This document shows, piece after piece, positions 1,674 through 20,044 of a DNA stretch of 20,269 nt. The notes beneath the pieces are model-generated. The model saw nothing but the letters and a program-made list of their open reading frames with translations. It was not told the DNA's origin and did not search any database. The first letter of the stretch is position 1; each line of letters starts with the position of its first letter. Position numbers and translations under genes: made by a program. The stretch comes from a virus: positions 1 through 20,269 of IMG/VR virus record IMGVR_UViG_3300035196_000009; one strand, 5' to 3'.

Positions 1674-2056
1674 TGAAGTTCGTGATAAAGGACAATAGAG
1701 ATAAGCAAAGTCTTTTCAGTTACCTAAAGGAATTAGATAACGATTACATAGTTAGTGTAAAGAAACAAAGAAACACAAGAAGTAATATGCAGAACAGTTA
1801 CTATTGGAAATGTATAGTACAAGGACTAGCAGAAGAACTAGGATATTTTCCTGATGAAATGCACGATGTACTAAGAGCTAAGTTCTTATCTGAATATGAA
1901 ATGATAAGCATCAATGATAACCAGATAGCATTAAATAAAATAGGAAGTACAACAGCTTTAAATACTAAAGCCTTTGAAGTATATACAGAACAAATAAGAG
2001 TATGGGCAATAACTGACTTAGGCATAAGACTAATGTTACCAAATGAATACCAATAA
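1673..2056 (+). CDS. NinB/Orf-like phage recombination protein
   Basis: A 127-residue protein starting at ATG 1673, overlapping the preceding TAA. Residues 33-49 (from RNTRSNMQN to the YYWKCIV segment) match the pattern Arg-Ser-x-x-Gln-Asn-x-x-Tyr-Trp found near the N-terminus of NinB-type proteins. Residues 60-72 (PDEMHDVLRAKFL) and the C-terminal stretch around 97-125 ('LNTKAFEVYTEQIRVWA', then LPNEY) are also typical of small phage proteins in this group. NinB (Orf) of lambda binds single-stranded DNA and assists RecA- or Red-type recombination in place of RecFOR. The similarity is by pattern only, so function is moderately supported. It is the last gene before the first late-type promoter motif. 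Confidence 0.6.
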   Translation: MKFVIKDNRDKQSLFSYLKELDNDYIVSVKKQRNTRSNMQNSYYWKCIVQGLAEELGYFPDEMHDVLRAKFLSEYEMISINDNQIALNKIGSTTALNTKAFEVYTEQIRVWAITDLGIRLMLPNEYQ

Positions 2057-2069
2057 TTTCTATTATATA
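2039..2069 (+). promoter_or_regulatory. Putative phage late promoter P1 (upstream of terminase genes)
   Basis: Copy 1 of a two-part motif found five times in the window: CCAAAT at 2039-2044, 15 nt, then CTATTATATA at 2060-2069. If TATTAT (2061-2066) acts as a -10 box, the spacer to the upstream hexamer is 16 nt. Transcription would begin about 7 nt after it, at or within a base of the small terminase ATG (2072). The upstream half overlaps the end of the NinB-like gene. Confidence 0.65.
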
Positions 2070-2071
2070 AT

Positions 2072-2431
2072 ATGGAAACAGAACAAAAGAGGACACAAAT
2101 AGCAAAGAAGCAAATGTTAAAAGCACTAGAAGGAAGTCTAGGTATAGTAACAACAGCTTTAAAGTCTTGCGACCTATCAAGAACTAACTACTACAAATGG
2201 TTAAAAGAAGATGAAGTATTTGCTCAAGCAGTAAATGATGTTGAGTTAATAGCTAAAGACTTTGTGATGTCTAAATTCTATGAATGTATAAAAGACAAAG
2301 TACCTTCAGTTGTAATACACGGAGCAAAGAATATTTGTGGTATGAATGAAACCAATAGAGTAGATTTAACTTCAGGAGATAAAGCTCTTAACCTTCCTTT
2401 AATTACATTCATTGACACTGATACTGAGTAA
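2072..2431 (+). CDS. terS: Terminase small subunit
   Basis: A 119-residue protein that recognises phage DNA and delivers it to the large subunit for packaging. Residues 22-45 (from LGIVTTALKSC to NYYKWLKED) form a helix-turn-helix of the type in which each round of the protein 'learns' a Tyr-Tyr-x-Trp recognition helix, as in many terminase small subunits. A helical oligomerisation segment covers about 50-90, with an acidic C-terminal tail. It lies directly upstream of the large subunit, which begins 20 nt before its end. ATG 2072 follows a promoter-like motif by only 2 nt, so the mRNA may be leaderless here. There is no Shine-Dalgarno sequence. Confidence 0.88.
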   Translation: METEQKRTQIAKKQMLKALEGSLGIVTTALKSCDLSRTNYYKWLKEDEVFAQAVNDVELIAKDFVMSKFYECIKDKVPSVVIHGAKNICGMNETNRVDLTSGDKALNLPLITFIDTDTE

Positions 2432-3620
2432 AAAATACAATCCTTTATTTGACTCTAAGGCTAGATACTTTATTGTAACAGGCGGTAGAGGATCTGGAAA
2501 GTCTTTTGCTGTTACAGTCTTTCTAACGCTCTTAACTATGTCAAAAGGAATAAGAGTTTTATTTACAAGATTTACAATGACATCAGCTCACCTTTCAATA
2601 ATTCCTGAGTTCTTAGAAAAGATAGGATTACTAGGATTTGATGAAACCTTTAATATCAATAAGTCAGAAGTAGTTAATGCAAAAAACAAATCAGATATTC
2701 TATTTAGAGGTATTAAGACATCAGCAGGAAACCAAACTGCAAGTCTAAAATCATTACAAGGAATAAGCACTTGGGTATTAGATGAAGCAGAGGAACTTGT
2801 AGATGAAAACATCTTTGATACTATTGATTTAAGTATAAGAGAAAAAAATATACAGAATAGGGTAATCTTAATATTGAATCCTGTAACTAAGGAACATTGG
2901 ATATATAAGAGGTTCTTTGAAGACAAAGGTATTGAAGGCGGATTTAATGGCGTTAAAGACAATATATGTTACATACATAGTACATACCTAGACAATGAAA
3001 CAAATCTATCTACGAGCTTCCTAGAGCGTATTAAGAGTATAAAGCATAACAACTTTAAAAAGTATCAGCACAAGATTCTTGGAGGGTGGCTAGCAAAGGC
3101 TGAAGGAGTAGTATTTGAAAACTGGAGTATAGGAGAATTTAATCCTGATAATTTACAAACATCATGTGGGATGGATTTTGGATTCTCAATAGATCCTGAT
3201 TCACTTACTGAAGTGGCTATCGATAAGAAGCATAAAAAAATTTATTTAAAAGAGCATATTTATAGGAATGGTTTGAAGTCTCATGAGCTATCTAAAATTG
3301 TCCTTGATAAAGTAGGGCAAAGTCTGATAATCGCTGATAGTGCTGAACCAAGACTTATAGAAGATTTAAGACATCAAGGCGTAAATATAAAAGCAGTAAA
3401 AAAAGGAACGATTGAAAGCGGTATCACTAGAATGCAAGACTATCATTTAGTGGTAACGCCTGAATCTACTAATATAGCTAAAGAGTTGAATAATTATGTC
3501 TATGCAGATAAAGGCTCTAAGCTTTATGTAGATAACTATAACCACGCGATAGACGGAATCCGTTATAATGTAATCTATCACCTAGACAATCCAAACGCAG
3601 GAAGGTATTATGTTCAGTAA
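2412..3620 (+). CDS. terL: Terminase large subunit (ATPase plus nuclease)
   Basis: A 402-residue DNA-packaging motor protein. The ATPase half has Walker A GGRGSGKS at 24-31, Walker B WVLDEAEE at 121-128 with catalytic Asp124/Glu125, and a coupling motif LILNP at 153-157. The C-terminal RNase H-like nuclease has acidic residues at Asp255 (GMDFGF), Asp309 (IADSAEPR) and Asp381 (AIDGIRY). This is the Terminase_3/PBSX type, at the short end of the usual length but complete. The start is TTG at 2412: no ATG lies between the end of the small subunit and Walker A, and the first internal ATG would delete the ATP-binding loop. It overlaps the small subunit by 20 nt, so translation is probably coupled. 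Confidence 0.96.
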   Translation: MTLILSKKYNPLFDSKARYFIVTGGRGSGKSFAVTVFLTLLTMSKGIRVLFTRFTMTSAHLSIIPEFLEKIGLLGFDETFNINKSEVVNAKNKSDILFRGIKTSAGNQTASLKSLQGISTWVLDEAEELVDENIFDTIDLSIREKNIQNRVILILNPVTKEHWIYKRFFEDKGIEGGFNGVKDNICYIHSTYLDNETNLSTSFLERIKSIKHNNFKKYQHKILGGWLAKAEGVVFENWSIGEFNPDNLQTSCGMDFGFSIDPDSLTEVAIDKKHKKIYLKEHIYRNGLKSHELSKIVLDKVGQSLIIADSAEPRLIEDLRHQGVNIKAVKKGTIESGITRMQDYHLVVTPESTNIAKELNNYVYADKGSKLYVDNYNHAIDGIRYNVIYHLDNPNAGRYYVQ

Positions 3621-3629
3621 ACAAGCTGT

Positions 3630-3660
3630 TAAACTAAAATCAACTAATTTCTATTATATA
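3630..3660 (+). promoter_or_regulatory. Putative phage late promoter P2 (upstream of tail genes)
   Basis: Copy 2 of the motif. CTATTATATA is exact at 3651-3660. The upstream half at the same 21-nt offset is TAAACT (3630-3635), the most divergent of the five. The predicted transcription start lies at about 3664, next to the ATG at 3665. The motif occupies most of the 44-nt gap after the large terminase gene and would drive the 9-kb tail block. Confidence 0.6.
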
Positions 3661-3664
3661 TTGT

Positions 3665-4306
3665 ATGAAAGTCAAAATTAAAAAACAAGGCAAAACAGAA
3701 TCGTTTAATCTTATCAATAGTTGGGAAGATGTGACTTTGGAAACTTGGTTAAAACTTATTGACTTTGAAAATGGAACAAAGACTGAGCAAGCCTCAGAAA
3801 CTATACAGGCTCTTTCCGACATACCTAAACAGTTAGTGAATGAATTAGCTTTATCAGACGTTGCTGTTATAATGGCTAAAGTTGCTGAGCTACAAGCAAA
3901 GCAAGATACTAATCTTAAAAGGATAATAGAGATTAATGAAGTTGAGTACGGATTTATGCCAGACCTTAACGCTATAACTTTAGGAGAATACGCTGACATA
4001 GAACAGTTTATAAAAAACGGAATACATAAGCAACTTCCTGAATTAATGGCTGTATTGCATAGACCTATAAAAGAAAAGAAGAATGATATATATATTATAG
4101 ACGCTTATGATGGTGATATTACAATGAGGACGGAAGAAATGAAACAGATGTCAGCCTCGCAAGTGCAAAATGCACTGGTTTTTTTTTATCATTTCGGGAC
4201 AGCGTTATCCGAGACTTTGCTATCATTTTCAATGGAGAGGCTGAAGGAAATGAAACCGCAATCGCAACCGAAAGTTTCGCTAGTAAGTGGGGATGGTTTG
4301 GCGTGA
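3665..4306 (+). CDS. Tail assembly chaperone, zero-frame product (gpG-like)
   Basis: A 213-residue, mainly helical and charged protein. The N-terminus has the pattern 'INSWEDVTLETWLKLIDFE' (residues 17-35), which I associate with a family of Bacteroidota phage proteins encoded just before tail genes. Residues about 120-150 (LPELMAVLHRPI, then an acidic Asp/Tyr stretch) are also typical. I call it a chaperone because of its place ahead of the tail block and because a run of nine T (4179-4187), in frame as GTT TTT TTT TAT at codons 172-175, is followed by an open -1 frame, as in lambda G/GT. Chaperones of this kind coat the tape measure during tail assembly. The unshifted product ends with about 39 residues encoded past the slip site. 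An alternative is that it is an unrelated structural protein with a fortuitous T-run. Confidence 0.7.
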   Translation: MKVKIKKQGKTESFNLINSWEDVTLETWLKLIDFENGTKTEQASETIQALSDIPKQLVNELALSDVAVIMAKVAELQAKQDTNLKRIIEINEVEYGFMPDLNAITLGEYADIEQFIKNGIHKQLPELMAVLHRPIKEKKNDIYIIDAYDGDITMRTEEMKQMSASQVQNALVFFYHFGTALSETLLSFSMERLKEMKPQSQPKVSLVSGDGLA

Positions 4307-4437
4307 TGCACAGATTATGCGGAGAAGATATCAGCAAGCTAGAAGCAATAACAAAGCTTAGTCTATTAGAATGTTTAACTTGGCTAAGTTATGAAACAGA
4401 TTTAAATTCACAAAATAAAGTAAGAAGAAATGGTTAA
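3665..4437 (+). CDS. Predicted -1 frameshift fusion of the tail assembly chaperone (gpGT-like, 257 aa)
   Basis: The predicted product shares residues 1-174 with the 213-residue form. It then continues in the -1 frame from codon TTA at 4186 to TAA at 4435-4437, adding 83 residues. That frame has no stop between 4117 and 4434. The added segment reads like a genuine protein, with 'FASKWGWFGVMHRLCGEDIS' followed by EAITKLSLLECLTWLSYE. Its two Trp codons and the whole KWGWFG stretch lie upstream of the only nearby ATG (4306), so the domain is larger than a stand-alone ORF from that ATG would encode. In the lambda GT system the T extension recruits the tail tube protein to the chaperone-coated tape measure. 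The fusion overlaps the next gene by 8 nt. Frameshift efficiency cannot be read from the sequence. Confidence 0.65.
4180..4186 (+). promoter_or_regulatory. Candidate -1 ribosomal frameshift slippery site
   Basis: T TTT TTT in the zero frame of the chaperone ORF (codon boundaries at 4181 and 4184) lies inside a 9-T run at 4179-4187. This is a canonical X XXY YYZ heptamer: both tRNAs can re-pair perfectly after slipping back one base, giving TTT TTT TTA in the -1 frame. A candidate stimulatory hairpin begins 5 nt downstream. Confidence 0.7.
4192..4214 (+). other. Candidate frameshift-stimulating hairpin
   Basis: Bases 4192-4198 can pair with 4208-4214. The 7-bp stem consists of three G-C pairs, two A-U pairs and two G-U wobbles, with a 9-nt loop. 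The spacer from the end of the slippery heptamer is 5 nt (4187-4191), within the 5-9 nt range normal for -1 frameshift stimulators. The stem is modest; I did not find a pseudoknot partner by eye. Confidence 0.45.
4306..4437 (+). CDS. Alternative stand-alone ORF (43 aa) in the -1 frame of the chaperone
   Basis: An ATG at 4306 overlaps the zero-frame stop as TGATG and opens 43 codons to TAA 4435-4437. It could be made by translational coupling instead of, or as well as, the frameshift fusion. The visible domain begins upstream of this ATG, so I prefer the fusion. The product is a short helical segment with Cys, Trp and acidic residues and nothing catalytic. It overlaps the next gene by 8 nt. 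Confidence 0.35.
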   Translation: MHRLCGEDISKLEAITKLSLLECLTWLSYETDLNSQNKVRRNG

Positions 4438-4978
4438 AAATAAGACGTATAATAATTTAGTAAACACTTTATTAAGATTAGGAGAAAATCATAATCAAAT
4501 ACACTCAACTTCTGTTGGTGACATTTGGAATGTTGATTTGGAAAAGAATACAAAGTTTCCTTTGCTACACATAAACCCTACAAGTGTAGCTACAGGCGAT
4601 AGTCAGTTAACCTATAATTTTCAGGTGTTTATTATGGACATGGTTACAGAAAGAGCTGACTGGACAAAGAACAATGCTGACGCAAATTTTACTAAGTTAG
4701 TAAAGACGCTAGATAACGAACAAGATGTATTTAATGAAACTTTGCAAATAGTAACAGACTTTATAGGAATGTTAAGGCACAGTTCAAGGCAATCTTTAGA
4801 AGGAGTAAATGATATTAATTTTCCTTTATACTTTACGCAAGACCAATTTACAATAGATCCGTTTTCAGAAAGATTTGACAATCTTTGTTGTGGATGGGTG
4901 TTTAATATTGGAGTGCTAGTACAGAATGACTTTCAAACGTGTGAAATTCCTGTTAGTACAAAAGGAGCAGGATATTAA
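4430..4978 (+). CDS. Tail terminator-like / minor tail protein
   Basis: A 182-residue soluble protein with mixed alpha-beta character. The N-terminus is a helix (NNLVNTLLRLGENH), followed by 'PLLHINPTSVATGDSQLTYN' leading into a beta-strand pair, a central helix, and 'CCGWVFNIGVLVQNDFQTCE' near the C-terminus. That layout (helix, strands carrying a Phe/Gly-Trp core, C-terminal Cys-x-Ile-Pro) is one I associate with Bacteroidota phage proteins placed where the tail terminator or head-tail joining protein normally sits. Three cysteines lie in the C-terminal third. It starts 8 nt inside the chaperone extension and ends at TAA overlapping the next ATG. The functional assignment comes mostly from position. 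A minor tail or neck protein is the alternative. Confidence 0.5.
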   Translation: MVKNKTYNNLVNTLLRLGENHNQIHSTSVGDIWNVDLEKNTKFPLLHINPTSVATGDSQLTYNFQVFIMDMVTERADWTKNNADANFTKLVKTLDNEQDVFNETLQIVTDFIGMLRHSSRQSLEGVNDINFPLYFTQDQFTIDPFSERFDNLCCGWVFNIGVLVQNDFQTCEIPVSTKGAGY

Positions 4979-5052
4979 TGCTGAAGTTTAAACTATGGAT
5001 AATGACAATAGAATTAGGATGGAAAAAATTTAAAATAACAATTAATTTATAA
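4978..5052 (+). CDS. Possible micro-ORF (24 aa)
   Basis: ATG 4978 overlaps the previous stop as TAATG, the same coupling used by most genes here, and reads 24 codons to TAA 5050-5052. The product is amphipathic and basic with three Trp/Tyr-class aromatics and ends 4 nt before the next ATG. Its only support is the coupled start and the fact that it fills the 78-nt gap exactly. It could equally be a translated leader that keeps ribosomes on the message. Confidence 0.3.
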   Translation: MLKFKLWIMTIELGWKKFKITINL

Positions 5053-5056
5053 AAAT

Positions 5057-5506
5057 ATGGCAGATTTAGTAACAACAATTTCAGAAACGGTCACTTTAAA
5101 TTCGAGTTTAAGGGGTTCAGTTAATTCATTAACAACAACAGGAATCAATGATGTATTTGAAAGGATAGTAACGTGTACAGCAGGAACAGCTGTAACTACA
5201 ATTGCAGTCTTTGATACATTACCATCAACATCAGCAGGAGCGATAGACGTTGATAGAACAAAATATGTTAGAGTGACTAACTTAGAAAAAGCAGTTGACA
5301 TTGAACTAGCGGTTCAAACAACTACTTCAAGTTATACAGTAACAGTAAGGGCAGGAGGTTCTCACGTTCTATATTCTGGTGATGTAATTGCTTTAGGTGA
5401 AGTTGGTGCGCCTTCTTTTGGGACTATGTTAAACTTAGCTTCTTTAAAGGTACGACCAACAACAGCAGTTACAGCTAGAGTTGAGGTATTTGTCGGAGTT
5501 GAATAG
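5057..5506 (+). CDS. Small beta-rich virion structural protein
   Basis: A 149-residue protein made almost entirely of Thr/Val/Ser-rich beta strands with no helix of note. The stretch from TKYVRVTNLEKAVDIELAV (residues 75-93) on to VRAGGSHVLYSGDVIAL is a pattern found in small phage virion proteins: a 'tyrosine-x-arginine-x-threonine-asparagine' strand followed by a 'Gly-Gly-Ser' turn. It sits between the tail terminator-like gene and the neck-like gene, so it should be part of the virion, possibly a decoration or tail-tube-associated protein. The leader AAAAAT before the ATG is A-rich and has no Shine-Dalgarno sequence. Exact function is not known to me. Confidence 0.6.
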   Translation: MADLVTTISETVTLNSSLRGSVNSLTTTGINDVFERIVTCTAGTAVTTIAVFDTLPSTSAGAIDVDRTKYVRVTNLEKAVDIELAVQTTTSSYTVTVRAGGSHVLYSGDVIALGEVGAPSFGTMLNLASLKVRPTTAVTARVEVFVGVE

Positions 5507-6057
5507 TGAATACTGATAATATAGAAAGGTATTTGAACAGTTTTGGAAAACAAGTAGTCAATAGAGCAAAAGGCGTCCTACAAAGAAAAAAAGGTGGTGG
5601 TACAAAATTAGAAGAATCCATCAGGTTTGAAGTAGTGCCATCTGGAGACGCTTTTGTATTACAATTCTATATGTCAGTTTATGGGCTTTATGTAGATAAA
5701 GGAGTATCAGGCACAGAACAAAAAAGGACGTTTAAAAACTATAAAAAGAAAGTAGTTCCGAGTCCGTACAGCTATAAAAACAGCAAAGGACATTCACAGC
5801 CTCCAAGCAGTGCTTTAGATAAATGGGTTGTAAGAAAAGGAATTGCACCAAGAGATGCAAGCGGTAAATTTATGAAGCGTAAGTCTATAACATTTTTAAT
5901 TGCTAGAAGTATAGGAAAAAAAGGAATACAAGGAATAGCGTTTTTTCAAAAACCTTTAGGACTTGCATTAGATGAATTTGGAAAAGACTTACTAGGAATT
6001 GTAAAAGAGGATATTTTAAATACATTAAATAAAGAAACAATAACACAGGTTAAATAA
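5506..6057 (+). CDS. HK97-gp10-like neck protein
   Basis: A 183-residue basic protein. Residues 5-50 form an N-terminal helix and strand (SFGKQVVNRAKGVL, then EESIRFEVV). 'YGLYVDKGVSGTEQ' at about 59-72 is the usual signature of gp10-type neck proteins, in which a Tyr-x-x-x-x-Asp-x-Gly turn leads to a loop. Pro-Pro-Ser-x-x-Leu-Asp-x-Trp (99-107), a GKFMKRKS segment, and FFQKPL near 150 complete a conserved order seen in Bacteroidota phage relatives. This family connects the head to the tail. The start is GTG 5506, overlapping the previous stop (TAGTG); the first internal ATG would remove most of the protein. It overlaps the next gene as TAATG. Confidence 0.68.
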   Translation: MNTDNIERYLNSFGKQVVNRAKGVLQRKKGGGTKLEESIRFEVVPSGDAFVLQFYMSVYGLYVDKGVSGTEQKRTFKNYKKKVVPSPYSYKNSKGHSQPPSSALDKWVVRKGIAPRDASGKFMKRKSITFLIARSIGKKGIQGIAFFQKPLGLALDEFGKDLLGIVKEDILNTLNKETITQVK

Positions 6058-7445
6058 TGGCAACAATAATAGAACAGCATCCTGAATATGATACACTTCC
6101 AACAGGACAAGACGTAATTTTTTCAGTATCAAATACGCCTATAGTTGCGGGCTTTTCAGGCGTAAAGATTATAGCTGAAGTTCATATAAGCTCAGATTTA
6201 CCGCCTAATTTATCTACTGTAGATGATTTAGTAGGTACTTTCAAAACAACGCCAAACAATGCAGGAGTAGGAATGTTTGACTTCAGACCTATTATTGAAA
6301 GCTTTGTTAGTACTGATAATTTAGCAAGGGAAGGAAGTGCTTATAAAACAGTACCAAATACTTCACAAACAAATGTTCCTATACACTTGATAGATATGTA
6401 TTCACTAAGCTTAAATACTATATGTTACTTAGCAATCGTTTTTACGACTGAATATATTGATTCATCTGGTGATTTAGTTGTTGATAGCACGCAAGATAAT
6501 TCAGAAACTTATAAAGTTTTTAATGGTTACTTAAAATACACAGACGTTTTAGATTTAGTCGGTGTTAATTTTGGTTACAACCTTTCAGACTTTAGTTTAT
6601 CCGCTAATACAGATAGTTTTTTAAGTAATGCGCCTACGATTCAATATGCAAACCTAGATGACTATGGTGTTATTTCTATTTTAGCTCTTAATAAAGACCT
6701 TCACTATATTAAACTAAATTACTTAGACAGTACGGGTACGCAAATAGATACAGAAAATGTATTTAAAACGACTTTAAATGGAGCGTATGATTTTTATGAT
6801 GCTTCTATAACAAAAAAAATATTATACTTTGGATGTTTTCCTGCTAACTTACAGGGAAGAAGTTCAAAATTTAGAGCTTTAATATCAGCAGGAACGATAC
6901 AAGGGGGTTCAATAGAAGTACAAGCATTTAATAACCAAGTAGGTGGTCAAATATCTAAAAAATATACAATAAATTTGAACTGCCCTACTCTTAAAGGCTT
7001 TAAACCTATCAGACTTACATGGTTGAATCAATGGGGAACATGGGATTACTATACTTTTACTATGAAGTCCGCTAAAATGATTTCAACTAAAGGGAGTACA
7101 TACCAACAACTTTCAGGCTCTTGGAATGAAAGTTCTTACAGAATAGATAGTTTCAAAGGTGGTAAAAAAGCCTTTAGAGTAAACGCTACTGAAAAAATAA
7201 CTATGAACACAGACTTTGTAAATGAAGCTGAATCTGAATGGTTTGAAGAGCTGATAAACAGCCCTGAAGTTTATATTTTAGAAAGTTATAGATTAGAAAC
7301 AACTTTCACAGCTTTGAATCAATACGTTACCCCTGCAAGGCTTACAACCTCTAGTTATACAAAAAAGACTATAGCGAATGACAAACTTATGCAATACACT
7401 TTTGAAATTGAAAAAAGTAAAACGCTTAGAACACAATCTATATAA
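6057..7445 (+). CDS. Tail-tip / baseplate structural protein (462 aa)
   Basis: A 462-residue, beta-rich protein without signal peptide or membrane segment. The N-terminal half consists of immunoglobulin-like strands. The C-terminal half has 'RLTWLNQWGTWDYYTFTMKS' at about 322-341, then a Ser-Trp-x-x-x-x-Tyr region, then acidic 'NEAESEWFEELINSPEVYIL' at about 391-410. I associate this Trp-Gly-x-Trp-Asp signature followed by a Trp-x-x-x-Leu-x-x-Ser-Pro element with a structural protein encoded next to the hub protein in Bacteroidota siphoviruses. Its place between neck and hub-like genes fits a distal tail or baseplate role. TAATG overlaps at both ends couple it to its neighbours. No enzymatic motif is visible. 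Confidence 0.6.
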   Translation: MATIIEQHPEYDTLPTGQDVIFSVSNTPIVAGFSGVKIIAEVHISSDLPPNLSTVDDLVGTFKTTPNNAGVGMFDFRPIIESFVSTDNLAREGSAYKTVPNTSQTNVPIHLIDMYSLSLNTICYLAIVFTTEYIDSSGDLVVDSTQDNSETYKVFNGYLKYTDVLDLVGVNFGYNLSDFSLSANTDSFLSNAPTIQYANLDDYGVISILALNKDLHYIKLNYLDSTGTQIDTENVFKTTLNGAYDFYDASITKKILYFGCFPANLQGRSSKFRALISAGTIQGGSIEVQAFNNQVGGQISKKYTINLNCPTLKGFKPIRLTWLNQWGTWDYYTFTMKSAKMISTKGSTYQQLSGSWNESSYRIDSFKGGKKAFRVNATEKITMNTDFVNEAESEWFEELINSPEVYILESYRLETTFTALNQYVTPARLTTSSYTKKTIANDKLMQYTFEIEKSKTLRTQSI

Positions 7446-10186: not shown

Positions 10187-11040
10187 TGTCAGTAAAAAAC
10201 TTAACGCCCTACTTACCAGGTTTTACAGTAAAACCATCAGCAATTTCAGGGATAGGAACTGTAACATTTACAGATGGACAAACTGAAGTAATTCCAAATC
10301 AATTACAGTGCGAGTCATACGGATATACTTACAACCAAGTAACTGGAACTTGTTCAGCCTTTAGATTTAATACAAATGTGAATAGATTAGTTGCAAATGA
10401 GAATAATAGAACTTATGGAGCAGGAAATTCAACACAAACAGGAACAAACAATACTATAGTAATGGGAGAAAATAATACTGTTAATGGCATGTCTAGAAAT
10501 AGTATTATTACAGGAAATCAAAATGAAATTGCAAACGGAGTAAATAATGCTAACGTATCAGGAACTTTAGGAGAGGCAACTTCAGATAATTCTATTGTAT
10601 TAGGTGGTAATAATTTAGTTGATTCTTTAGGTGAAAGACAAAACATTACTGTTATGTATGGAACGCAAACAGATGATAATAGTACAGTTGATAGCTACTT
10701 AAATAATGTAACTGGAAGTTATTTTCAAATACCTTTAAATTCTATAGTAGTATTTCAAACTGAAACGATAGGAGTTAGAATAGGCGGTTCAGGCGGAGGA
10801 AGTACAGGAGATTTCAAAGCAATGATTGAAGTGGGAGCAGCAGTTAATAAGTCGGGCGTATTAAGCATAGACAGCTCAAGGACTGTGATTGCAAATGTTG
10901 GTACGACTTCAGGATGGATTTCAACAGTTGGTGTTTCAGGTACTAACTTTTTACAGCAAGTTAAGGGAGCTAACAACAGAGATATAATGTGGGCGACAAC
11001 GATTAGATTTACACAAATTAAAACGGGGGTAACTTTATAA
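10186..11040 (+). CDS. Putative tail fibre with YadA-like Asn/Gly repeats (284 aa)
   Basis: A 284-residue fibre-like protein. Residues about 86-148 are short repeats of the type 'NNTIVMGENNTVNGMSRNSI', with Asn-x-x-(Ile/Val)-x-Gly recurring at 14-18-residue intervals. This is the pattern of trimeric beta-roll heads such as YadA, which fold as left-handed parallel rolls. The N-terminal 60 residues, with two cysteines in CESYGYTYNQVTGTC (41-55), may attach it to the tail tip. The C-terminal 110 residues are a Gly/Ser-rich beta domain ('NSIVVFQTETIGVRIGGSGG', then GWISTVGVSG). Placement after the hub-like protein supports a receptor-binding role. The start overlaps the hub gene stop (TAATG). It is short for a fibre, so it may be one of several. 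Confidence 0.62.
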   Translation: MSVKNLTPYLPGFTVKPSAISGIGTVTFTDGQTEVIPNQLQCESYGYTYNQVTGTCSAFRFNTNVNRLVANENNRTYGAGNSTQTGTNNTIVMGENNTVNGMSRNSIITGNQNEIANGVNNANVSGTLGEATSDNSIVLGGNNLVDSLGERQNITVMYGTQTDDNSTVDSYLNNVTGSYFQIPLNSIVVFQTETIGVRIGGSGGGSTGDFKAMIEVGAAVNKSGVLSIDSSRTVIANVGTTSGWISTVGVSGTNFLQQVKGANNRDIMWATTIRFTQIKTGVTL

Positions 11041-11049
11041 AATAAAACT

Positions 11050-12696
11050 ATGGCAAAGGAAGTGTTAGAAATGGAGATAAATTCCAATATAGGTGAAGTA
11101 TCTAAAGGAATTGACAAGGCAGCAAAATCTACTGGGAAACTAGCGGATGAAACTTCTCAAATAAGTGGTGCAACTAAGACAGCAGCAAAAGGGTTTAAAG
11201 GATTGGGTACAGCAGTGAAAGGAGTTGGAATGGCTTTAAAAGCAGCAGGAATTGGTTTATTAATAGCAATATTTGCAGCTCTTAAAGAAGCTATTGAAAG
11301 GAATCAGACTGCTATGGACGCAATCAATACTATAATGAGTACAATTTCAACTACGTTTAATCAAGTAGTTTCAGTGATTGTTGACATGGTAAATTGGGTA
11401 ACTGAAAGCTCAGACCGTTTTGACGGATTAACAAAAGTTTTAAGTGGTGTTATGACGCTTGCATTGACTCCTTTGAAGTTAGCATTCTATGGACTTAAAT
11501 TAGGCGTTCAGCAAGTCATGTTAGCATGGGAAGATAGCTTCCTAGGTGGCGGAGATGAAGGGACTATCGCAAAACTTAGGGAAGATGTGCAAGGAACAAA
11601 AGACGATATTTTGGAAGTTGGTGAGGCAGCTATTCAAGCAGGAAAAGATGTTTATAATAATATTGGTGATGCAGTCAATGAATTAGGAGCTATATATGAA
11701 CAAGTTGCAACCGGATTAAGCGACATTTCTATAAAAGGAAATTACGAACAAGCAAAGGCAACAACTGCCGCAACGAAAGCAGCTATGTTTGCACAAGCAG
11801 AATTTGCAAAGTTAAACGCACAATTTTTAAGGGATGCAGAACTTCAAAGACAAATAAGGGATGATGAGACAAAATCTTTTGCAGAAAGAATAGAAGCAAA
11901 TAACACGCTGAATGATGTATTAGAAGAACAAGCAACACTACAAAGAGAACAAGTACAAATTGGAATAAATGCAGCAGCTTTATTAGTACAGCAAAACGCA
12001 AATGATGAGAATAGGTTAGCATTAATGGAGGCTCAAAATGCTATGTTAGAGCTTGAAGAAACTATCACTGGACAGTTATCTGAGCAAAAGACAAATCAAG
12101 TATCTTTGGAAAAGGAATTAGCACAAACGCAAAAAGAAGTAAGAGCTGAAGGACTAACAGGCTTACAAAGAGAATTGCAAGAGTTGGAAGATGCTTATGA
12201 CTTAAAGATTGAAATGGCTGAAAAAGCAGGAGAAAAAACGACAGCTATAACAAAGCAATTTGAAAAACAAAAGACAGAAATAGTACAAGCAAATTTAAAT
12301 GAACAACTAAGTGCATATTCAGGACTAGCAGGAGCATTAAGTTCTTTAGCAGGAGATAACAAAGCTTTAGCAGTAGCGTCAGCAGTCATAGATACTTATG
12401 TAGGGGCGAATAAAGCCTTTGCACAAGGAGGATTTGCAGGATTTGCTACAGGAGCAGCAGTTATAGCAGCAGGCTTAAATAATGTTAGAACTATTTTATC
12501 TACAGATGTTCCAGGTTCAGAAGGGGGAGGTGGTTCAGCGCCTGCACCTCAAACACCTGCACCTCAAATGATGTCAGGGGCTTTTGATATATCAGGTGGA
12601 GTCGAACCTGAACCAGTAGAGGCTTTTGTTGTAACCGACTCAATGACAAATAGTCAAAACCAATTAGCAAACATTAGACGTAGAGCTACAATCTAA
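11050..12696 (+). CDS. Tail tape measure protein
   Basis: A 548-residue, nearly all-helical protein. Ala/Lys-rich helices open it (residues 1-58), with a strongly hydrophobic segment at 60-77 (around AAGIGLLIAIFAAL) and a second at about 128-150. A long coiled-coil, Gln/Glu-rich stretch covers about 225-420. Near the C-terminus, 'NKALAVASAVIDTYVGANKA' is followed by Gly/Ala-rich helices, then a Gly/Ser/Pro-Ala linker (PAPQTPAPQ) and a short tail ending in NIRRRATI. This order is typical of Bacteroidota tape measures. At 0.15 nm per residue the tail would be about 82 nm. No lytic or peptidase domain is visible. It is the last gene of the tail block; the chaperone for it would be the 3665 gene, 7 kb upstream. 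The leader AAAATAAAACT is A-rich. Confidence 0.88.
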   Translation: MAKEVLEMEINSNIGEVSKGIDKAAKSTGKLADETSQISGATKTAAKGFKGLGTAVKGVGMALKAAGIGLLIAIFAALKEAIERNQTAMDAINTIMSTISTTFNQVVSVIVDMVNWVTESSDRFDGLTKVLSGVMTLALTPLKLAFYGLKLGVQQVMLAWEDSFLGGGDEGTIAKLREDVQGTKDDILEVGEAAIQAGKDVYNNIGDAVNELGAIYEQVATGLSDISIKGNYEQAKATTAATKAAMFAQAEFAKLNAQFLRDAELQRQIRDDETKSFAERIEANNTLNDVLEEQATLQREQVQIGINAAALLVQQNANDENRLALMEAQNAMLELEETITGQLSEQKTNQVSLEKELAQTQKEVRAEGLTGLQRELQELEDAYDLKIEMAEKAGEKTTAITKQFEKQKTEIVQANLNEQLSAYSGLAGALSSLAGDNKALAVASAVIDTYVGANKAFAQGGFAGFATGAAVIAAGLNNVRTILSTDVPGSEGGGGSAPAPQTPAPQMMSGAFDISGGVEPEPVEAFVVTDSMTNSQNQLANIRRRATI

Positions 12697-12698
12697 AA

Positions 12699-12729
12699 TC
12701 AAATAAACTAACTTAAAATCTATTATATA
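12699..12729 (+). promoter_or_regulatory. Putative phage late promoter P3 (upstream of protease gene)
   Basis: Copy 3 of the motif: TCAAAT at 12699-12704, 15 nt, then CTATTATATA at 12720-12729. ATG is at 12732, so the predicted transcription start falls on the start codon within about a base. It fills the 35-nt gap after the tape measure stop; no terminator hairpin precedes it. Confidence 0.65.
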
Positions 12730-12731
12730 CT

Positions 12732-13919
12732 ATGCCTTGCGAAGAATGTGAAAACGGAAAATATAAATGGGGAAAGACTGGCTCTTGTAAATACGATACA
12801 AAAGCTGAATGTGAAGAAGATAACAAAGACTATTATGAAGATATGAAGGAAACTAAAATAGTAGAATTAGTAATTGCAGACGATAGTCAAGAGTTGGCAA
12901 TTGACGCTATCAGCCTAGTAACAAGTCCTGCAATAGAGCAAGACTTTGTATTCTTTGGTAAAGAGAAGAACAACTTGACATTTGCTAAAGTAGATGAGGA
13001 AAAAAGAATGTTAGTAAGTCCTGCTTTGATTCCTAACAAGCAAATATTTAGACACGACCCAAACACAGACTCAGATTACTATGTATATTTTAGTCCTGAT
13101 ACAGTAAGAAAGGCTTCTGAATTGTATTTAAAGCATAACAACCACCACAAAGCTACTTACCAACATCAAGACAGAGTTTCAGGAATCCTTACAGTTGAGT
13201 CTTGGATAATTGAAGACACTAAGTTAGATAAGTCTACACTTTACGGATATTCACTTCCTGTTGGAACTTGGATGGTTAAGCTATCTATTTCAAATGACGA
13301 AATTTGGAGCAAGATAAAAAACGGAGAACTTAAAGGTCTTTCTATTGAAGGATATTTTACTAATAAATTTGAACAAATGAACAAAACAAAACCGACAACA
13401 GAAGAAATACTAAGTGCTTTTAATGAATTAGTAAGGGAAGGAAAAATTACTACAATGAGTAAGGCTAAAAGAATTGAATTAGGATTAGCTGATGATGTAG
13501 AAAAACTTACCCAACAAGCTAAAGCTTTAATCCCTGATATAACTAAAGATAATGGATTTATTAAAGATAGTGAAAAAGATTTAATAACAGAAGGGAAGCG
13601 TTTAACTAAGAGAAAATCTATATTAGATAAAGCAGATACTAAAGAAAGAGAACTTTTTAGAGCTTTAGATTCAGCACAAGATAACTTAGCTACAGCAGAA
13701 AGGGAATTTAAGGAAACTGAACGCTCAATACAAGGTAGTAAAGATTCAATAGTTTTTATCAATAAAAGACTAGATAAAACAAAAGGAAAAGCTTCAAAAT
13801 TAAGAGGTAGTTTAGAAAAGAAATTAGACACTTTAGAAAAAGCAGCTAAAGACTTAGGTGTTAAAATACCAACAGGAGAAGCTTCAAAAGTATTGAAGAA
13901 ATTAATCTCACTTCTTTAA
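12732..13919 (+). CDS. XkdF-type prohead protease with coiled-coil extension
   Basis: A 395-residue protein in three parts. Residues 1-30 are Cys-rich (C3, C6, C19, C27; CEECENGKYKWGKTG then CKYDTKAEC), a small module that may bind metal. Residues about 55-210 match the XkdF-like phage serine protease layout: 'VTSPAIEQDFVFFGKEK', then RMLVSPALIPNKQIFR, TYQHQDRV with candidate catalytic His145, WIIED, and KGLSIEGYF with candidate Ser204. Such enzymes cut scaffold and capsid precursors during prohead maturation. Residues about 255-375 are a charged coiled coil that may act as an internal scaffold. It lies two genes upstream of the major capsid protein. The Cys-rich module makes it longer than XkdF alone. 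A non-proteolytic scaffold is the alternative if the His/Ser pair is not catalytic. Confidence 0.75.
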   Translation: MPCEECENGKYKWGKTGSCKYDTKAECEEDNKDYYEDMKETKIVELVIADDSQELAIDAISLVTSPAIEQDFVFFGKEKNNLTFAKVDEEKRMLVSPALIPNKQIFRHDPNTDSDYYVYFSPDTVRKASELYLKHNNHHKATYQHQDRVSGILTVESWIIEDTKLDKSTLYGYSLPVGTWMVKLSISNDEIWSKIKNGELKGLSIEGYFTNKFEQMNKTKPTTEEILSAFNELVREGKITTMSKAKRIELGLADDVEKLTQQAKALIPDITKDNGFIKDSEKDLITEGKRLTKRKSILDKADTKERELFRALDSAQDNLATAEREFKETERSIQGSKDSIVFINKRLDKTKGKASKLRGSLEKKLDTLEKAAKDLGVKIPTGEASKVLKKLISLL

Positions 13920-13922
13920 AAA

Positions 13923-13953
13923 TCAAACAGAACAATAACTATTCTATTATATA
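13923..13953 (+). promoter_or_regulatory. Putative phage late promoter P4 (upstream of scaffold and capsid genes)
   Basis: Copy 4: TCAAAC at 13923-13928, 15 nt, then CTATTATATA at 13944-13953. Unlike the other copies, the ATG (13974) is 20 nt after the motif. The predicted transcript starts near 13957 with an A-rich leader of about 17 nt. This copy shows the motif is not just part of a start-codon context, which supports a promoter role. Confidence 0.65.
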
Positions 13954-13973
13954 ACAGAACTTAAAACAAAACT

Positions 13974-14636
13974 ATGGATTTAAAAAATCAAATATTGGTA
14001 GCACTTGGTCTTGATAAAGGCGAAGAAGTTTCTCTTGCTTGGCAAGCGAAAAGTGAAGACGGAACTATTTTCGTTTCAACAGCTGAAGAATTAGCTAACG
14101 GTGTGGATATCAGCGTTTTAACTGAAGATGGCACGACAATTTTATTGCCAATCGGCACGTATAAAACTGATACAGGTGTAACTTTTAGAGTTTCTGAAGA
14201 GGGTATCGTTGCTGAAGTTATGGAAACTGAAACTGAGGAAGTAGTTGAGGAAGAAATGGCTGAAGAAGAAGAAGAAAAAAAATACGCAGACGTTGAGGAC
14301 TGGGAAGGAATGGAAAAAAGAATCCAGAACCTAGAGGACGCTGTCGCTGACCTTAAAAAAGCTAAAGAAGGCGGAGATGATGAGGTAGAGGAAATGGCAG
14401 AAGAAGTAACAGAGCCTTCAAAGAACCCAAAATCTATTAAGACTACAGAAGTGGTTGAATTTTCAGTTGATGATTTGAAAGAACAAAATGAATTATTAAA
14501 AGCAGAATTAGCAGCACAGCCTGCGTCAGCACCTTTAGACACAAATAAATTTAGTTCAGAAAGAAAGCCTGTATCTAAATTAGACTTTTCAAAAATGAGT
14601 AAGAACGAGAAGTTTTTACATAACTTATATAATTAA
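13974..14636 (+). CDS. Acidic scaffold-like protein upstream of the capsid gene
   Basis: A 220-residue protein immediately before the major capsid gene. Residues 1-82 form a small beta domain with 'GLDKGEEVSLAWQAKSEDGT' near its start and a Gly-Val-Thr-Phe strand. Residues 84-102 are almost pure Glu. Two short coiled-coil helices follow at about 111-130 and 165-180, then a Pro/Ala linker and a basic C-terminus (KPVSKLDFSKMSKNEKFLHN). Acidic, helical proteins with a basic C-terminal hook at this location are usually scaffolding proteins; the hook would bind the capsid protein. The N-terminal pattern (a Leu-Gly-Leu-x-Lys start, then Trp-Gln-Ala) recurs at this position in Bacteroidota phages. 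Scaffold is an inference from composition and position. It ends 21 nt before the capsid ATG. Confidence 0.62.
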   Translation: MDLKNQILVALGLDKGEEVSLAWQAKSEDGTIFVSTAEELANGVDISVLTEDGTTILLPIGTYKTDTGVTFRVSEEGIVAEVMETETEEVVEEEMAEEEEEKKYADVEDWEGMEKRIQNLEDAVADLKKAKEGGDDEVEEMAEEVTEPSKNPKSIKTTEVVEFSVDDLKEQNELLKAELAAQPASAPLDTNKFSSERKPVSKLDFSKMSKNEKFLHNLYN

Positions 14637-14639
14637 TAA

Positions 14640-14657
14640 CTAAAAAAAACAAACAAA
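14640..14657 (+). promoter_or_regulatory. A-rich translation leader of the major capsid gene
   Basis: An uninterrupted A8 tract, then CAAACAAA, lies directly before ATG 14658, with no Shine-Dalgarno sequence. The 21 nt ending in this ATG are identical at 18 positions to the 21 nt ending in the ATG of the probable tail tube gene (15652-15672). These are the two proteins needed in highest copy. Unstructured A-rich leaders favour strong initiation in Bacteroidota. Confidence 0.5.
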
Positions 14658-15602
14658 ATGGCGTTTACTACGACAAGCAATTTCGCAGGGAAGGCGGCTG
14701 GATTTTATATTTCAGCAGCGTTAAAATCAGCAGTATCACTTGACTATCTTACAATGATAGAAAATATCAAATTCAAATCTAACATCCAAAAAATGGATGC
14801 AACAGTTACCCCTATTGCAGCAGCAACGTGTGACTTTACAGGAGCAGGAACTCTTGCTTTAACTGAGAAGGTGTTAGAACCGGCTAATCTACAAATTAAC
14901 CTAGATTTATGCAAGGCAACGCTTTTGGATTCTTGGGAAGCGTTACAAATGAGAGCAGGAGCAGGAGCACCTCCGCCTGCATCTTTTGATGACTATGTAA
15001 TTTCTTATATGGGAGATATTATCGGACAAGCAACTGAAAACTCTATTTGGGCAGGAGTAGCAAATGCAGGTGGAGACTTTATCGGATTCACAGGAGCAGG
15101 AGCAGCAGGATGGTTAAGAAATGGAAATGATGCAACAGTTGTGCAAGCAGTTTTAACAGGAGGTGCAGGAGTTGCACCAGTAGTAGGAACAATTATTGCT
15201 GACATCCAAGCAGGATTAGATGCAGTACCGGCAGCAGTTATTGGAAAAGAAGATTTACATATCTACTTAAACCAAAAGAATTATCAATTATACATCCAAG
15301 CAATTTCAGCTTTAGGTTACTTAAATGCTTACAATATGCAAGGGGATTACGTTCCAATGTTCAACGGAATTAAAATAGCTGTTGTTAATGGCTTACAAAA
15401 TGCTGCAATCGTTATAGCTGAGAAGTCAAATTTATTCTTTGGGACTGATTTGCTAAGCGATATTGGAACAGCAGGAACAGGTCCTTCAATCAAGCTTTTG
15501 GATATGTCTCAATTAGACGGAAGTGACAATATGCGAATGGTAGCTCGTTATAGTGCAGGAACTCAGACAGGTATCGGAGCTGATTGCGTACTTGTATCTT
15601 AA
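14658..15602 (+). CDS. Major capsid protein
   Basis: A 314-residue protein with the composition of an HK97-fold capsid protein: Ala/Gly-rich, few charges, and a low-complexity central loop (MRAGAGAPPPASFDDY at 98-113). 'LTEKVLEPANLQINLDLCKA' (68-87) and TLLDSWEALQM (88-98) form the segment I recognise from Bacteroidota phage capsid proteins. Strands at 230-256 (VPMFNGIKIAVVNGL, then IVIAEKSNLFFG) look like the P-domain. It is preceded by a protease and a scaffold-like gene and followed by a probable tail tube gene, the standard capsid context. The N-terminus shows no obvious cleavable Delta domain; the preceding scaffold gene would supply it. Cysteines are at 58, 85 and 310. Confidence 0.85.
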   Translation: MAFTTTSNFAGKAAGFYISAALKSAVSLDYLTMIENIKFKSNIQKMDATVTPIAAATCDFTGAGTLALTEKVLEPANLQINLDLCKATLLDSWEALQMRAGAGAPPPASFDDYVISYMGDIIGQATENSIWAGVANAGGDFIGFTGAGAAGWLRNGNDATVVQAVLTGGAGVAPVVGTIIADIQAGLDAVPAAVIGKEDLHIYLNQKNYQLYIQAISALGYLNAYNMQGDYVPMFNGIKIAVVNGLQNAAIVIAEKSNLFFGTDLLSDIGTAGTGPSIKLLDMSQLDGSDNMRMVARYSAGTQTGIGADCVLVS

Positions 15603-15616
15603 TAAATAAATAATAC

Positions 15617-15646
15617 GGAAGTGAGGGTGTAAAAGCTCTCACTCCC
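15617..15646 (+). terminator. Hairpin between capsid and tail tube genes (attenuator-like)
   Basis: GGAAGTGAG (15617-15625) pairs with CTCACTCCC (15638-15646) with one A-C mismatch, and the stem can extend inward by three pairs (two of them G-U) to a 6-nt loop. No T-run follows; the next bases are TTAACC then an A tract. It is therefore more likely a partial attenuator or a 3'-end stabiliser for the capsid mRNA than a full Rho-independent terminator. Confidence 0.5.
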
Positions 15647-15651
15647 TTAAC

Positions 15652-15669
15652 CTAAAAAAAAACAATAAA
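15652..15669 (+). promoter_or_regulatory. A-rich translation leader of the probable tail tube gene
   Basis: CCTA9 then CAATAAA runs straight into ATG 15670, with no Shine-Dalgarno sequence. With its ATG it differs from the capsid leader at only 3 of 21 positions, which suggests selection for the same strong initiation context. Confidence 0.5.
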
Positions 15670-16257
15670 ATGGCTTGTACAGCACTTACAAAAGGTAGGG
15701 GACTCGACTGTAATAGAATCAGTGGTGGAATTAAATTCGTTTATTTCGGAGTTTACGACCAATTTACAGCACCAATTGAAACAACAGGACTTCCAGTTAC
15801 AGCAGGAGAAGTTACAGACCTTGAAATGGGTTCAAATGACTTATACAGATATACTATGCCTTTAGGCGTAGCTAGTCTTACAGATACAATTGTAGGTAGT
15901 CGCGAGAACGGGACTATTTACTATACGCCAAGTTTGAGCGTTATTCTTAACAGACTTACAAAGGAAGACCAAAATCAAATCAAATTATTAGGAGCGACGA
16001 AACTAGTTTGTTTCGCTCAACTTAATGCAACTTTACCATCAGGAACAGACGTGATAGTTGCTTTAGGAGTTACTAATGGAATGGAACTTAATGCAGGAAC
16101 TATGGACTCAGGAGCAGCTTGGGGAGATAGAGGGGGTTATACTCTTACTTTTGACGGAATGGAGGCTTCTCCATTTCCAATGGTAGCAGACTATCCAATA
16201 GCAACAGGACCATTCACAAATGCAGGGTTTAATTTTGGAACAATAGTTACATCTTAA
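15670..16257 (+). CDS. Probable major tail (tube) protein
   Basis: A 195-residue, beta-rich protein immediately after the major capsid gene and read from a near-identical leader, implying high copy number. 'GGIKFVYFGVYDQFTAPIET' (19-38), then YRYTMPLG, 'ENGTIYYTPSLSVILNRLTK' (79-98), an ATKLVCFAQL strand, and 'DRGGYTLTFDGMEASPFPMV' (152-171) follow the order I associate with tail tube proteins of Bacteroidota phages: a Tyr-rich start, a Leu-x-Val-x-Leu-x-x-Leu strand, an Asn-Gly-x-x-Leu turn, then Gly-Tyr-x-Leu-x-Phe-x-Gly-x-Glu. Cys3 and Cys14 are near the N-terminus. It is separated from the other tail genes by the head block, which is unusual. A capsid decoration protein is the main alternative. 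The Rho-independent terminator at 16285 follows it. Confidence 0.68.
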   Translation: MACTALTKGRGLDCNRISGGIKFVYFGVYDQFTAPIETTGLPVTAGEVTDLEMGSNDLYRYTMPLGVASLTDTIVGSRENGTIYYTPSLSVILNRLTKEDQNQIKLLGATKLVCFAQLNATLPSGTDVIVALGVTNGMELNAGTMDSGAAWGDRGGYTLTFDGMEASPFPMVADYPIATGPFTNAGFNFGTIVTS

Positions 16258-16284
16258 TTTTCTTATCTGTTTTCTTATAATATT

Positions 16285-16317
16285 AAAAGGGTAGCTTAAT
16301 TGCTGCCTTTTTTTTTT
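16285..16317 (+). terminator. Rho-independent terminator after the capsid/tail tube unit
   Basis: AAAAGGGTAGC (16285-16295) pairs with GCTGCCTTTT (from 16302) through an 11-bp stem with two G-U wobbles and the 6-nt loop TTAATT. The stem runs into a 10-T tract (16308-16317). It is the strongest terminator in the window and lies between the tail tube stop (16257) and promoter motif P5 (16332). Confidence 0.9.
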
Positions 16318-16331
16318 AAAACACTACAGAA

Positions 16332-16362
16332 CCAAATAAAAACAATACTTTTCTATTATATA
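16332..16362 (+). promoter_or_regulatory. Putative phage late promoter P5 (portal and lysis unit)
   Basis: Copy 5: CCAAAT at 16332-16337, 15 nt, then CTATTATATA at 16353-16362. ATG is at 16365, so the predicted start of transcription is at about 16366 and the mRNA would be leaderless. It begins 15 nt after the strong terminator, the best single argument that this motif is a promoter: genes from 16365 onward need a new transcript. Confidence 0.72.
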
Positions 16363-16364
16363 GT

Positions 16365-16838
16365 ATGATACAAGCAATTACAGCAACTAACATCATAGCG
16401 GAAATATCAACTGAAGATAATAGAATAGATACGACAGTAGCCTCTACACAGATTAGATTCTTAGTTAAGTTTATTAATGACCTTGACGGTTCTATTGAAT
16501 ATTGTTATCCGACAAGCTTAATACATGAAAGATATACAAAAATTTCATTTTCTTATTTAGCAATTCCCACTGTTTTTACAGGGATTAATCTTTTACCTGC
16601 TGGTCACTGGAAATATGAAGTATATGAAGTCAGTTGGATAGGAACAATTGTTGTGGCTTTGAATACAGCTCCAGTTAATGAAACAGATGTTTTGCCTGTA
16701 GCTAATACCAACGGAATTGTTCAAGGAATAGTTACAAAAGGGATTCTAAATTTAACAGAAAAAGCAGGCACAGAGCAGGTACAATATAATCAACACGAAT
16801 CACCAGAAGGAACGAATACTATTTACTACGGACAATAA
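16365..16838 (+). CDS. Conserved virion-associated protein (157 aa)
   Basis: A 157-residue beta-rich protein. 'TQIRFLVKFINDLDGSIEYC' (28-47) leads into a YPTSLIHERYTKISF strand pair, then 'LLPAGHWKYEVYEVSWIGTI' (76-95) and a C-terminal segment of GIVTKGILNLTEK followed by a Tyr-x-Gln tail. The Arg-Tyr-x-x-(Ile/Phe)-x-Phe and Gly-x-Trp-x-Tyr-x-Val-Tyr elements form a recurrent pattern in small structural proteins of Bacteroidota phages, where these genes sit close to the portal. I cannot give a role. Position next to the portal suggests a head vertex or head-tail part. It begins 2 nt after promoter motif P5 and ends 9 nt before the portal ATG, so the two are co-transcribed. Confidence 0.55.
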   Translation: MIQAITATNIIAEISTEDNRIDTTVASTQIRFLVKFINDLDGSIEYCYPTSLIHERYTKISFSYLAIPTVFTGINLLPAGHWKYEVYEVSWIGTIVVALNTAPVNETDVLPVANTNGIVQGIVTKGILNLTEKAGTEQVQYNQHESPEGTNTIYYGQ

Positions 16839-16847
16839 AAATTAAAA

Positions 16848-18836: not shown

Positions 18837-18838
18837 TT

Positions 18839-19411
18839 ATGAGCTATGTACTATTTATATCAGAGGCTAAATTAAAAGACTCTACAGCAATTAACTTAAA
18901 TGTAGATGTGGAAATATTGCTCCCGTTTGTACGTGAAGCGCAAAAAATCTATGTGGAAACAGCGCTAGGGACTGACCTAAACAATAAATTGAAAAACTTA
19001 ATTATTGCCGGAACTGTGGGAAATGTTGGCAATGAAGCTTATAAGACTTTGCTAGATGATTACATAGGGGATATGTTACCGTCGTATAGTCTTTATCATG
19101 CTTTTAATTATCTTAGGCACAAAGTAGAGAACGGAAATATTTTTTCCAAAACTTCTGAAACTGGTAACGCCTTAAGTACGGAAGAGGCGCAAAGCTTTAG
19201 AGAAGAAATTTTAAATACTGGAAGTTACTATCGTGAAAGACTAATCCTTTACATTATTAACAATTCCGCTAGTTTCCCTGAATATACGACTAATACTGGA
19301 GCTGACGTAAACCCTTCAAGAGATAACTATTATAACAACATGAACCTAGAAAGAACAAACAATCAAGGTACACGACTTACATTAAGAAACTTTTTAAACG
19401 CTTCTGATTAA
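18839..19411 (+). CDS. DUF6712-like head-tail connector protein
   Basis: A 190-residue protein with the order of the DUF6712 family: an opening strand with ISEAKLKDSTAINLNVDVE (8-26), then LLPFVREAQKIYVETALGTDL (28-48), a central helix ending 'GNEAYKTLLDDYIGDMLPSY' (64-83), and YHAFNYLRHKVENGNIF near 86-102. The C-terminal half is hydrophilic and Asn-rich. The group is all-helical and is found next to portal genes in Bacteroidota phages, where the equivalent of lambda gpFI/HK97 gp6 adaptors sits. Head completion is therefore the likely role. It follows the portal by 2 nt and its stop overlaps the next ATG as TAATG. Confidence 0.75.
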   Translation: MSYVLFISEAKLKDSTAINLNVDVEILLPFVREAQKIYVETALGTDLNNKLKNLIIAGTVGNVGNEAYKTLLDDYIGDMLPSYSLYHAFNYLRHKVENGNIFSKTSETGNALSTEEAQSFREEILNTGSYYRERLILYIINNSASFPEYTTNTGADVNPSRDNYYNNMNLERTNNQGTRLTLRNFLNASD

Positions 19412-20043: not shown

Positions 20044-20044
20044 T

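Follow-up and report, generated by a model that had tools for sequence, protein, structure and literature searches.

A two-part element before the late genes of a Bacteroidota phage family as a likely late promoter for a phage-encoded ECF-like σ factor

Introduction

What reads a two-part sequence that stands before five groups of phage packaging and structural genes? The question is raised by a 20,269-nt stretch of DNA from a marine Bacteroidota virus (IMG/VR record IMGVR_UViG_3300035196_000009, positions 1 to 20,269; the whole stretch is called the window here), which holds five copies of the element [YC]AAA[YT]AAA–N11–TCTATTATATA. A reading of the letters alone (the original prediction) had taken these copies for candidate phage-specific late promoters and suggested that a phage-encoded or phage-modified factor may be involved. 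How Bacteroidota phages, which abound in the sea, control their genes is little known. In this study, we followed the element through the window and its relatives, and our analysis supports the late-promoter interpretation: very probably, the five sites are late promoters read by the host core RNA polymerase together with a small phage-encoded, extracytoplasmic function (ECF)-like σ factor, with the early operon under the control of the host σ factor.

Results

All five predicted occurrences of CTATTATATA were recovered on the plus strand, at 2060, 3651, 12720, 13944, and 16353, each preceded at exactly 21 nt by its upstream hexamer (CCAAAT, TAAACT, TCAAAT, TCAAAC, and CCAAAT, respectively). 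Exact copies of CTATTATATA number seven in the window compared to 0.20 expected, a count that none of 100 shuffles reached, and a scan with the two-part consensus, in which a match means at least 16 of 20 positions, returned exactly the five sites, compared to zero to two in 20 Markov shuffles. A scan for σ70 promoters gave no surplus over shuffles. The original prediction was right that an in-gene copy at 9799 (plus strand) is without the upstream half, but overlooked a second one on the minus strand (8645-8654), which is without it as well; many in-gene copies complete with the upstream half, which would speak against a promoter, are thus not seen. The copy at 9799 is coding sequence (TCC TAT TAT ATA CCT, encoding SYYIP), and the relative L174 has CTATTATATACCT in the same coding context. 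The placement of the sites in intergenic gaps or at their edges needs amending for site 1, whose upstream half overlaps the preceding gene: CCAAATGAATACCAATAA comprises the final codons and stop of that gene (PNEYQ*), which may be why this site has GAA instead of AAA. From the end of the motif to the ATG, sites 1 to 5 leave 2, 4, 2, 20, and 2 nt, a feature absent from the original prediction. Of the −35/−10 layout that it proposed, the fixed spacing of the two parts stands, whereas the names are approximate, the best-conserved blocks being YCAAAYAAA and TCTATTATATA. Its claim that the motif is unlike the promoter of a Bacteroidota host was borne out, since TAnnTTTG at −7, which marks σ-ABfr promoters, is found at none of the five sites.

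The family to which the window belongs counts at least 470 contigs in IMG/VR. We picked relatives by homology to the putative major capsid gene and to the σ-like protein described below, not by the motif, and scored the 110 nt 5′ of the homologue's start for every window gene. In these homology-selected loci, the motif was found at 87 of the 94 distinct sites before the five late genes, compared to none of 408 before 19 other genes; loci known only from a pattern scan of IMG/VR, where many single-match contigs are probably due to chance, were excluded from both counts. The element is kept before 4 of 4 ATG-started homologues of the small terminase gene (TerS, site 1), in 4 of 4 cases at site 2, where the TAAACT upstream variant is also conserved, and in 21/24, 27/30, and 31/32 distinct relatives at sites 3, 4, and 5. 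These last three, the best-sampled sites, gave 17/19, 25/25, and 29/31 in a second, capsid-selected set, with 0 elsewhere. As the original prediction expected, copies in relatives stand only before late genes: near-complete genomes of 27-31 kb have four or five, all before packaging or structural genes, and their sporadic weak additional matches are no commoner than in a backward control. Within the element, the C of CAAAYA lies 19 nt 5′ of TCTATTATATA in 84 of 89 matches, and the spacer between the halves is free in sequence and fixed in length. The distance from motif to ATG, in contrast, ranges from 2 to 33 nt among the relatives. This combination of fixed inner spacing with variable distance to the ATG points to a promoter-like signal acting at the DNA level and argues against a translation signal.

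The suggested search for a phage-encoded factor led to an ECF-like σ gene in the early region of the relatives. Every near-complete relative examined has this σ-like protein of about 188 residues (181-190), and 27 sequences were aligned (alignment A1). All 27 match the TIGR02937 (σ70-ECF) family, the best at 3.7e-11, with member 1 scoring 27.7 bits against a cut-off of 42.9; 20 of the 27 match the Pfam family for σ region 4, and 24 match phrog_36, annotated "transcriptional regulator." Conservation peaks in a helix-turn-helix at the C terminus, NTLDSLAKKTGISRNSLFTTIDKVR, and RYGAVALRRALTS aligns by eye with YATWWIRQAIT, the σ70 region 2.3-2.4 signature. In an AlphaFold model, a disordered linker of low confidence connects two helical domains. 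The Foldseek matches of this model in the PDB are nearly all σ factors, led by the SigL complex of Mycobacterium tuberculosis (6dv9, probability 1.00), and the alignment spans both σ2 and σ4. As modeled, the protein would consist of σ2 and σ4 only, without σ1.1 or σ3, as do ECF (group IV) factors. We file it as ECF-like, outside any named ECF group. Textbook ECF promoters have AAC at −35 and CGT at −10; the window family has neither, showing CAAA[YT] and CTATT instead. A profile search of PDB sequences with the σ-like protein gave nothing useful, and tblastn against 50,697 phage records gave no match. Among contigs of species genomes, relatives of the protein occur only in L311 and L312, from metagenome-assembled genomes titled Pseudooceanicola and Euryarchaeota; these are probably misbinned phage contigs and hence indicate no host.

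If one trans-acting protein reads all sites of a genome, these sites should shift jointly, and several separate cases of this kind are seen. In the genome G008, the −10 half reads CTATA[AT].. at all sites (CTATAATATA, CTATATATAA, CTATAATATT, and CTATATTATA), while the upstream half is intact. Three sites each carry CTCTTATAT[AT] in G003 and CTATATATTA in L328, and a variant in which A replaces the first C is common to L322, L335, and L354. Over the whole set, sites of the same contig are more alike than shuffled ones (0.81 compared to 1.21 differences; 0 of 2,000 shuffles in a permutation test). As a separate observation, the σ factor of G008 (L220, 6708-7277) is alone among the aligned σ factors in having N for R at position 69 and T for A at position 65, both in the segment that aligns with σ70 region 2.3-2.4, and we regard these substitutions as a candidate specificity change.

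The early region carries a different signal. TTTG and TAnnTTTG make up the Bacteroidota housekeeping (σ-ABfr) promoter (PMC6847099, PMC9723704), and the leader of the early operon contains TTG-N16..22-TAnnTTTG in 18 of 26 distinct relatives, compared to 1 of 26 in the backward control. This relaxed form in the leader is the informative test, the strict TTTG-N17..21-TAnnTTTG giving scattered matches only when searched genome-wide. In the relatives, the σ gene lies 3′ of this host-type promoter in the same co-directional gene run. Housekeeping promoters are thus apparently used for the early operon and are absent from the five late sites, which suggests the order host σ factor, early operon with the phage σ gene, late promoters. 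Repeated TTGTTAATAACTTTGTAAATAA-like stretches also occur 5′ of the host-type early promoter, for example, in L277 and L302 past a metallophosphoesterase-like gene; they are possibly operators or additional promoters.

A parallel is found in cultured phages. P12024S and P12024L (NC_018271, NC_018272) infect Nonlabens (Persicivirga), and their TerL is 62% identical to the window's, making P12024S the nearest cultured phage by this protein. Like the window family, P12024S has its own σ-like protein, gp33 (Sigma70_r2, 25.2 bits; cut-off, 24), and a repeated two-part motif, with six clear and one weaker AAAACAAA-N13/14-CGTTAATATA sites that end 1-3 nt 5′ of ATGs; motif and σ factor recur in its uncultured relatives. 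The two systems differ in that the P12024S motif, AAAACAAA-N14-CGTTAATATA, is of the classic ECF style (AAC/CGTT), and their σ factors are only weakly similar (hhalign probability 47%, E 1.9e-4, over the first 50 residues). That two lineages combine different motifs with the same geometry supports the late-promoter interpretation.

This geometry also bears on the start points. The motif ends 2-4 nt 5′ of the ATG at four of the five window sites and 2-5 nt from it at 72 of 144 distinct sites in relatives, and these ATGs are credible starts, since the similarity of the proteins begins at residue 1. Since usual distances from a −10 element would place initiation at or beside the ATG, we predict leaderless late mRNAs. 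Leaders seem to be tolerated, however, as the scaffold-gene site lies 12-33 nt from its ATG in nearly all relatives. Most host mRNAs do have leaders: leaderless mRNAs make up 5.5% in Flavobacterium psychrophilum (PMC9723704), and 87% of leaders in Flavobacterium johnsoniae exceed 10 nt (PMC6847099). The wider proposition, that in two distantly related Bacteroidota phage lineages an ECF-like σ factor makes transcription begin at or directly beside the start codon, so that most late mRNAs are leaderless, is one that we regard as evenly balanced. If true, these phages rely on an initiation route that serves only about 5% of mRNAs in their hosts, which lack Shine-Dalgarno signals.

Discussion

Our data suggest a complete early-to-late switch for this phage family, composed of a host promoter, a phage σ factor, and five late promoters, with a parallel in cultured P12024S. 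The host housekeeping σ factor would transcribe the early operon, including the σ gene, from the Bacteroidota-type TTG/TAnnTTTG promoter. The phage σ factor, made of σ2 and σ4 only, would then join the host RNA polymerase core, with region 4 reading [YC]AAA[YT]AAA and region 2 reading TCTATTATATA, and fire five collinear packaging, head, and tail units from the late sites. At most sites, initiation would fall at or a few bases from the start codon and yield leaderless or nearly leaderless mRNAs. We infer both the start points and the late timing.

Several points weigh against this interpretation. The assignment of the σ-like protein to the late element is inferred from sequence, through co-occurrence, position, and coherent drift. 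Kinship among the contigs inflates the permutation test of this drift, and the consensus score was built on the same family on which it was tested, the control being the per-gene contrast and not the score. Individual σ candidates fall under the curated Pfam cut-offs for regions 2 and 4 (Sigma70_r2/r4), which is why we used the alignment, NCBIfam, AlphaFold, and Foldseek; here too, Foldseek gave no match at E 0.001, the best being 1.3e-3. The window fragment itself is without a σ gene. Its left-end gene fragment, however, recurs at 100% amino acid identity in four loci in which the σ gene ends about 690-720 bp to the left, so that the window's own phage probably carries the gene just past the left end.

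One alternative is that a host ECF-type σ factor, exploited late by the phage, reads the sites. Flavobacteria have several ECF σ factors, F. psychrophilum seven of them, and the ECF-type motif known from that species has CGT as its −10 box (PMC9723704), as does the P12024S motif; the −10 half of the window family, however, is without CGT and drifts coherently within phage genomes, and every near-complete phage genome examined retains a σ-like gene of its own, all of which makes a host reader unlikely. It is just as unlikely, in our view, that a phage activator binds the sites and brings in the host housekeeping σ factor in the manner of T4 MotA, the σ-like protein being this activator and no true σ factor. 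Both the phrog_36 annotation and the strong conservation of the region-4-like helix-turn-helix would fit an activator, yet Foldseek aligns σ2 as well as σ4, conservation within the element is highest in the −10-like half, and the five sites have no host-type TAnnTTTG, for which the gap between motif and ATG is too short.

An element that works in RNA, as a translation-initiation or mRNA-processing signal beside start codons, could account for the downstream half lying so often within 5 nt of the ATG, the more so as A at −3 aids initiation in F. johnsoniae (PMC6847099). We nevertheless consider it very improbable: the two halves keep their spacing although the distance to the ATG changes, the element is missing before the putative major capsid gene and 18 other genes, and no RNA structure was found at the two sites folded. 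Even less credence is due to conserved linkers that aid the exchange of gene cassettes and have no transcriptional role. In relatives, the same pair of sites does enclose either of two different terminase types, but linkers would be conserved over their full length, whereas here the spacer keeps its length and not its sequence, and the two halves drift jointly.

Compared to known systems, the proposed σ/promoter pair recalls T4 late transcription, in which gp55, gp33, and gp45 act at TATAAATA late promoters, without a −35 contact and with the clamp coupling transcription to replication. Both schemes have a phage σ factor divert the host core polymerase to late promoters whose −10 element is strictly AT-rich, but the window family also has a conserved upstream half, which argues for a region 4 contact, unlike T4. 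Phage-encoded σ factors with their own late promoters are already known from phiEco32 and 7-11, which likewise combine host-type early promoters with a small number of well-conserved, phage-specific ones before structural genes, recognized, as here, by comparing intergenic regions (PMC4331800). They differ from the window family in their enterobacterial hosts, their tAATGTAtA consensus, their middle and late promoter classes, and their anti-σ gene (PMC4331800); the window family has Bacteroidota-type host promoters, a two-part element, and a start codon abutting the −10 half, and no anti-σ factor was identified. What appears to be new is an ECF-like pair in Bacteroidota phages, its two-part element, and the overlap with start codons; a literature search, with most subscription papers beyond its reach, found no description of these promoters. 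Because the −10 half and the start codon are predicted to overlap, leaderless translation can be tested directly in these hosts without Shine-Dalgarno signals, and ECF-like σ/promoter pairs that have seemingly drifted together lend themselves to the building of orthogonal expression tools for Bacteroidota.

Organization of the late region

The proposed promoters and the units that they would serve are listed in Table 1. The names of the capsid and scaffold genes are tentative and follow gene order, their phrog families carrying no assigned function.

Table 1. Proposed late promoters, terminator, and gene units of the window
Feature	Coordinates	Strand	Description	Matching phrog families
Late promoter 1	2039..2069	+	CCAAATGAA-N11-TCTATTATATA; before small terminase gene (ATG 2072); upstream half overlaps 3′ end of NinB-like gene (1673-2056)	
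Late promoter 2	3630..3660	+	TAAACTAAA-N11-TCTATTATATA; before gene 3665 and tail gene unit	
Late promoter 3	12699..12729	+	TCAAATAAA-N11-TCTATTATATA; before head-maturation-protease-like gene (ATG 12732)	
Late promoter 4	13923..13953	+	TCAAACAGA-N11-TCTATTATATA; before scaffold-like gene 13974 and putative major capsid gene 14658; 20-nt leader region	
Late promoter 5	16332..16362	+	CCAAATAAA-N11-TCTATTATATA; before gene 16365 and portal gene	
Intrinsic terminator	16285..16321	+	Immediately 5′ of late promoter 5; 11-bp stem, then T run	
Unit 1	2072..3620	+	Small and large terminase genes	phrog_4044, phrog_3717, phrog_2
Unit 2 (tail unit)	3665..12696	+	Gene 3665 through tape-measure-like gene	phrog_32199, phrog_29822, phrog_21537, phrog_3336
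Unit 3	12732..13919	+	Head-maturation-protease-like gene	phrog_24921, phrog_15223, phrog_3017
Unit 4	13974..16257	+	Scaffold-like gene, putative major capsid gene, gene 15670	phrog_11320, phrog_19091
Unit 5	16365..20239	+	Gene 16365, portal, following genes	phrog_33693

None of the internal genes of unit 4 is preceded by the motif. The terminator (−14.4 kcal/mol, z −3.7) closes the unit preceding site 5 and is kept among 69 distinct relatives, with a stable fold in 67 and the T run in all 69. Between the putative major capsid gene and gene 15670 lies a further stable hairpin (15617-15647), which has no U run and is followed by TTAACC. A fold of −8 kcal/mol or lower forms at this position in every one of 94 distinct relatives, with a median of −17 kcal/mol, and the stem letters vary while the pairing is maintained; this is possibly an mRNA-stability or attenuation element.

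The terminases mentioned above, compared over window positions 2072-3620, L208 3009-4340, and L222 11711-13042, are a PBSX-like protein of 402 aa in the window and one of 443 aa in G002 and G009, as if the two conserved late promoters bounded an exchangeable terminase cassette. Finally, in both G002 and G001, genes at one contig end recur in somewhat diverged form at the other (G002 has two versions of a methyltransferase, G001 two σ copies), suggesting that these genomes are circularly permuted and were assembled from strain variants.

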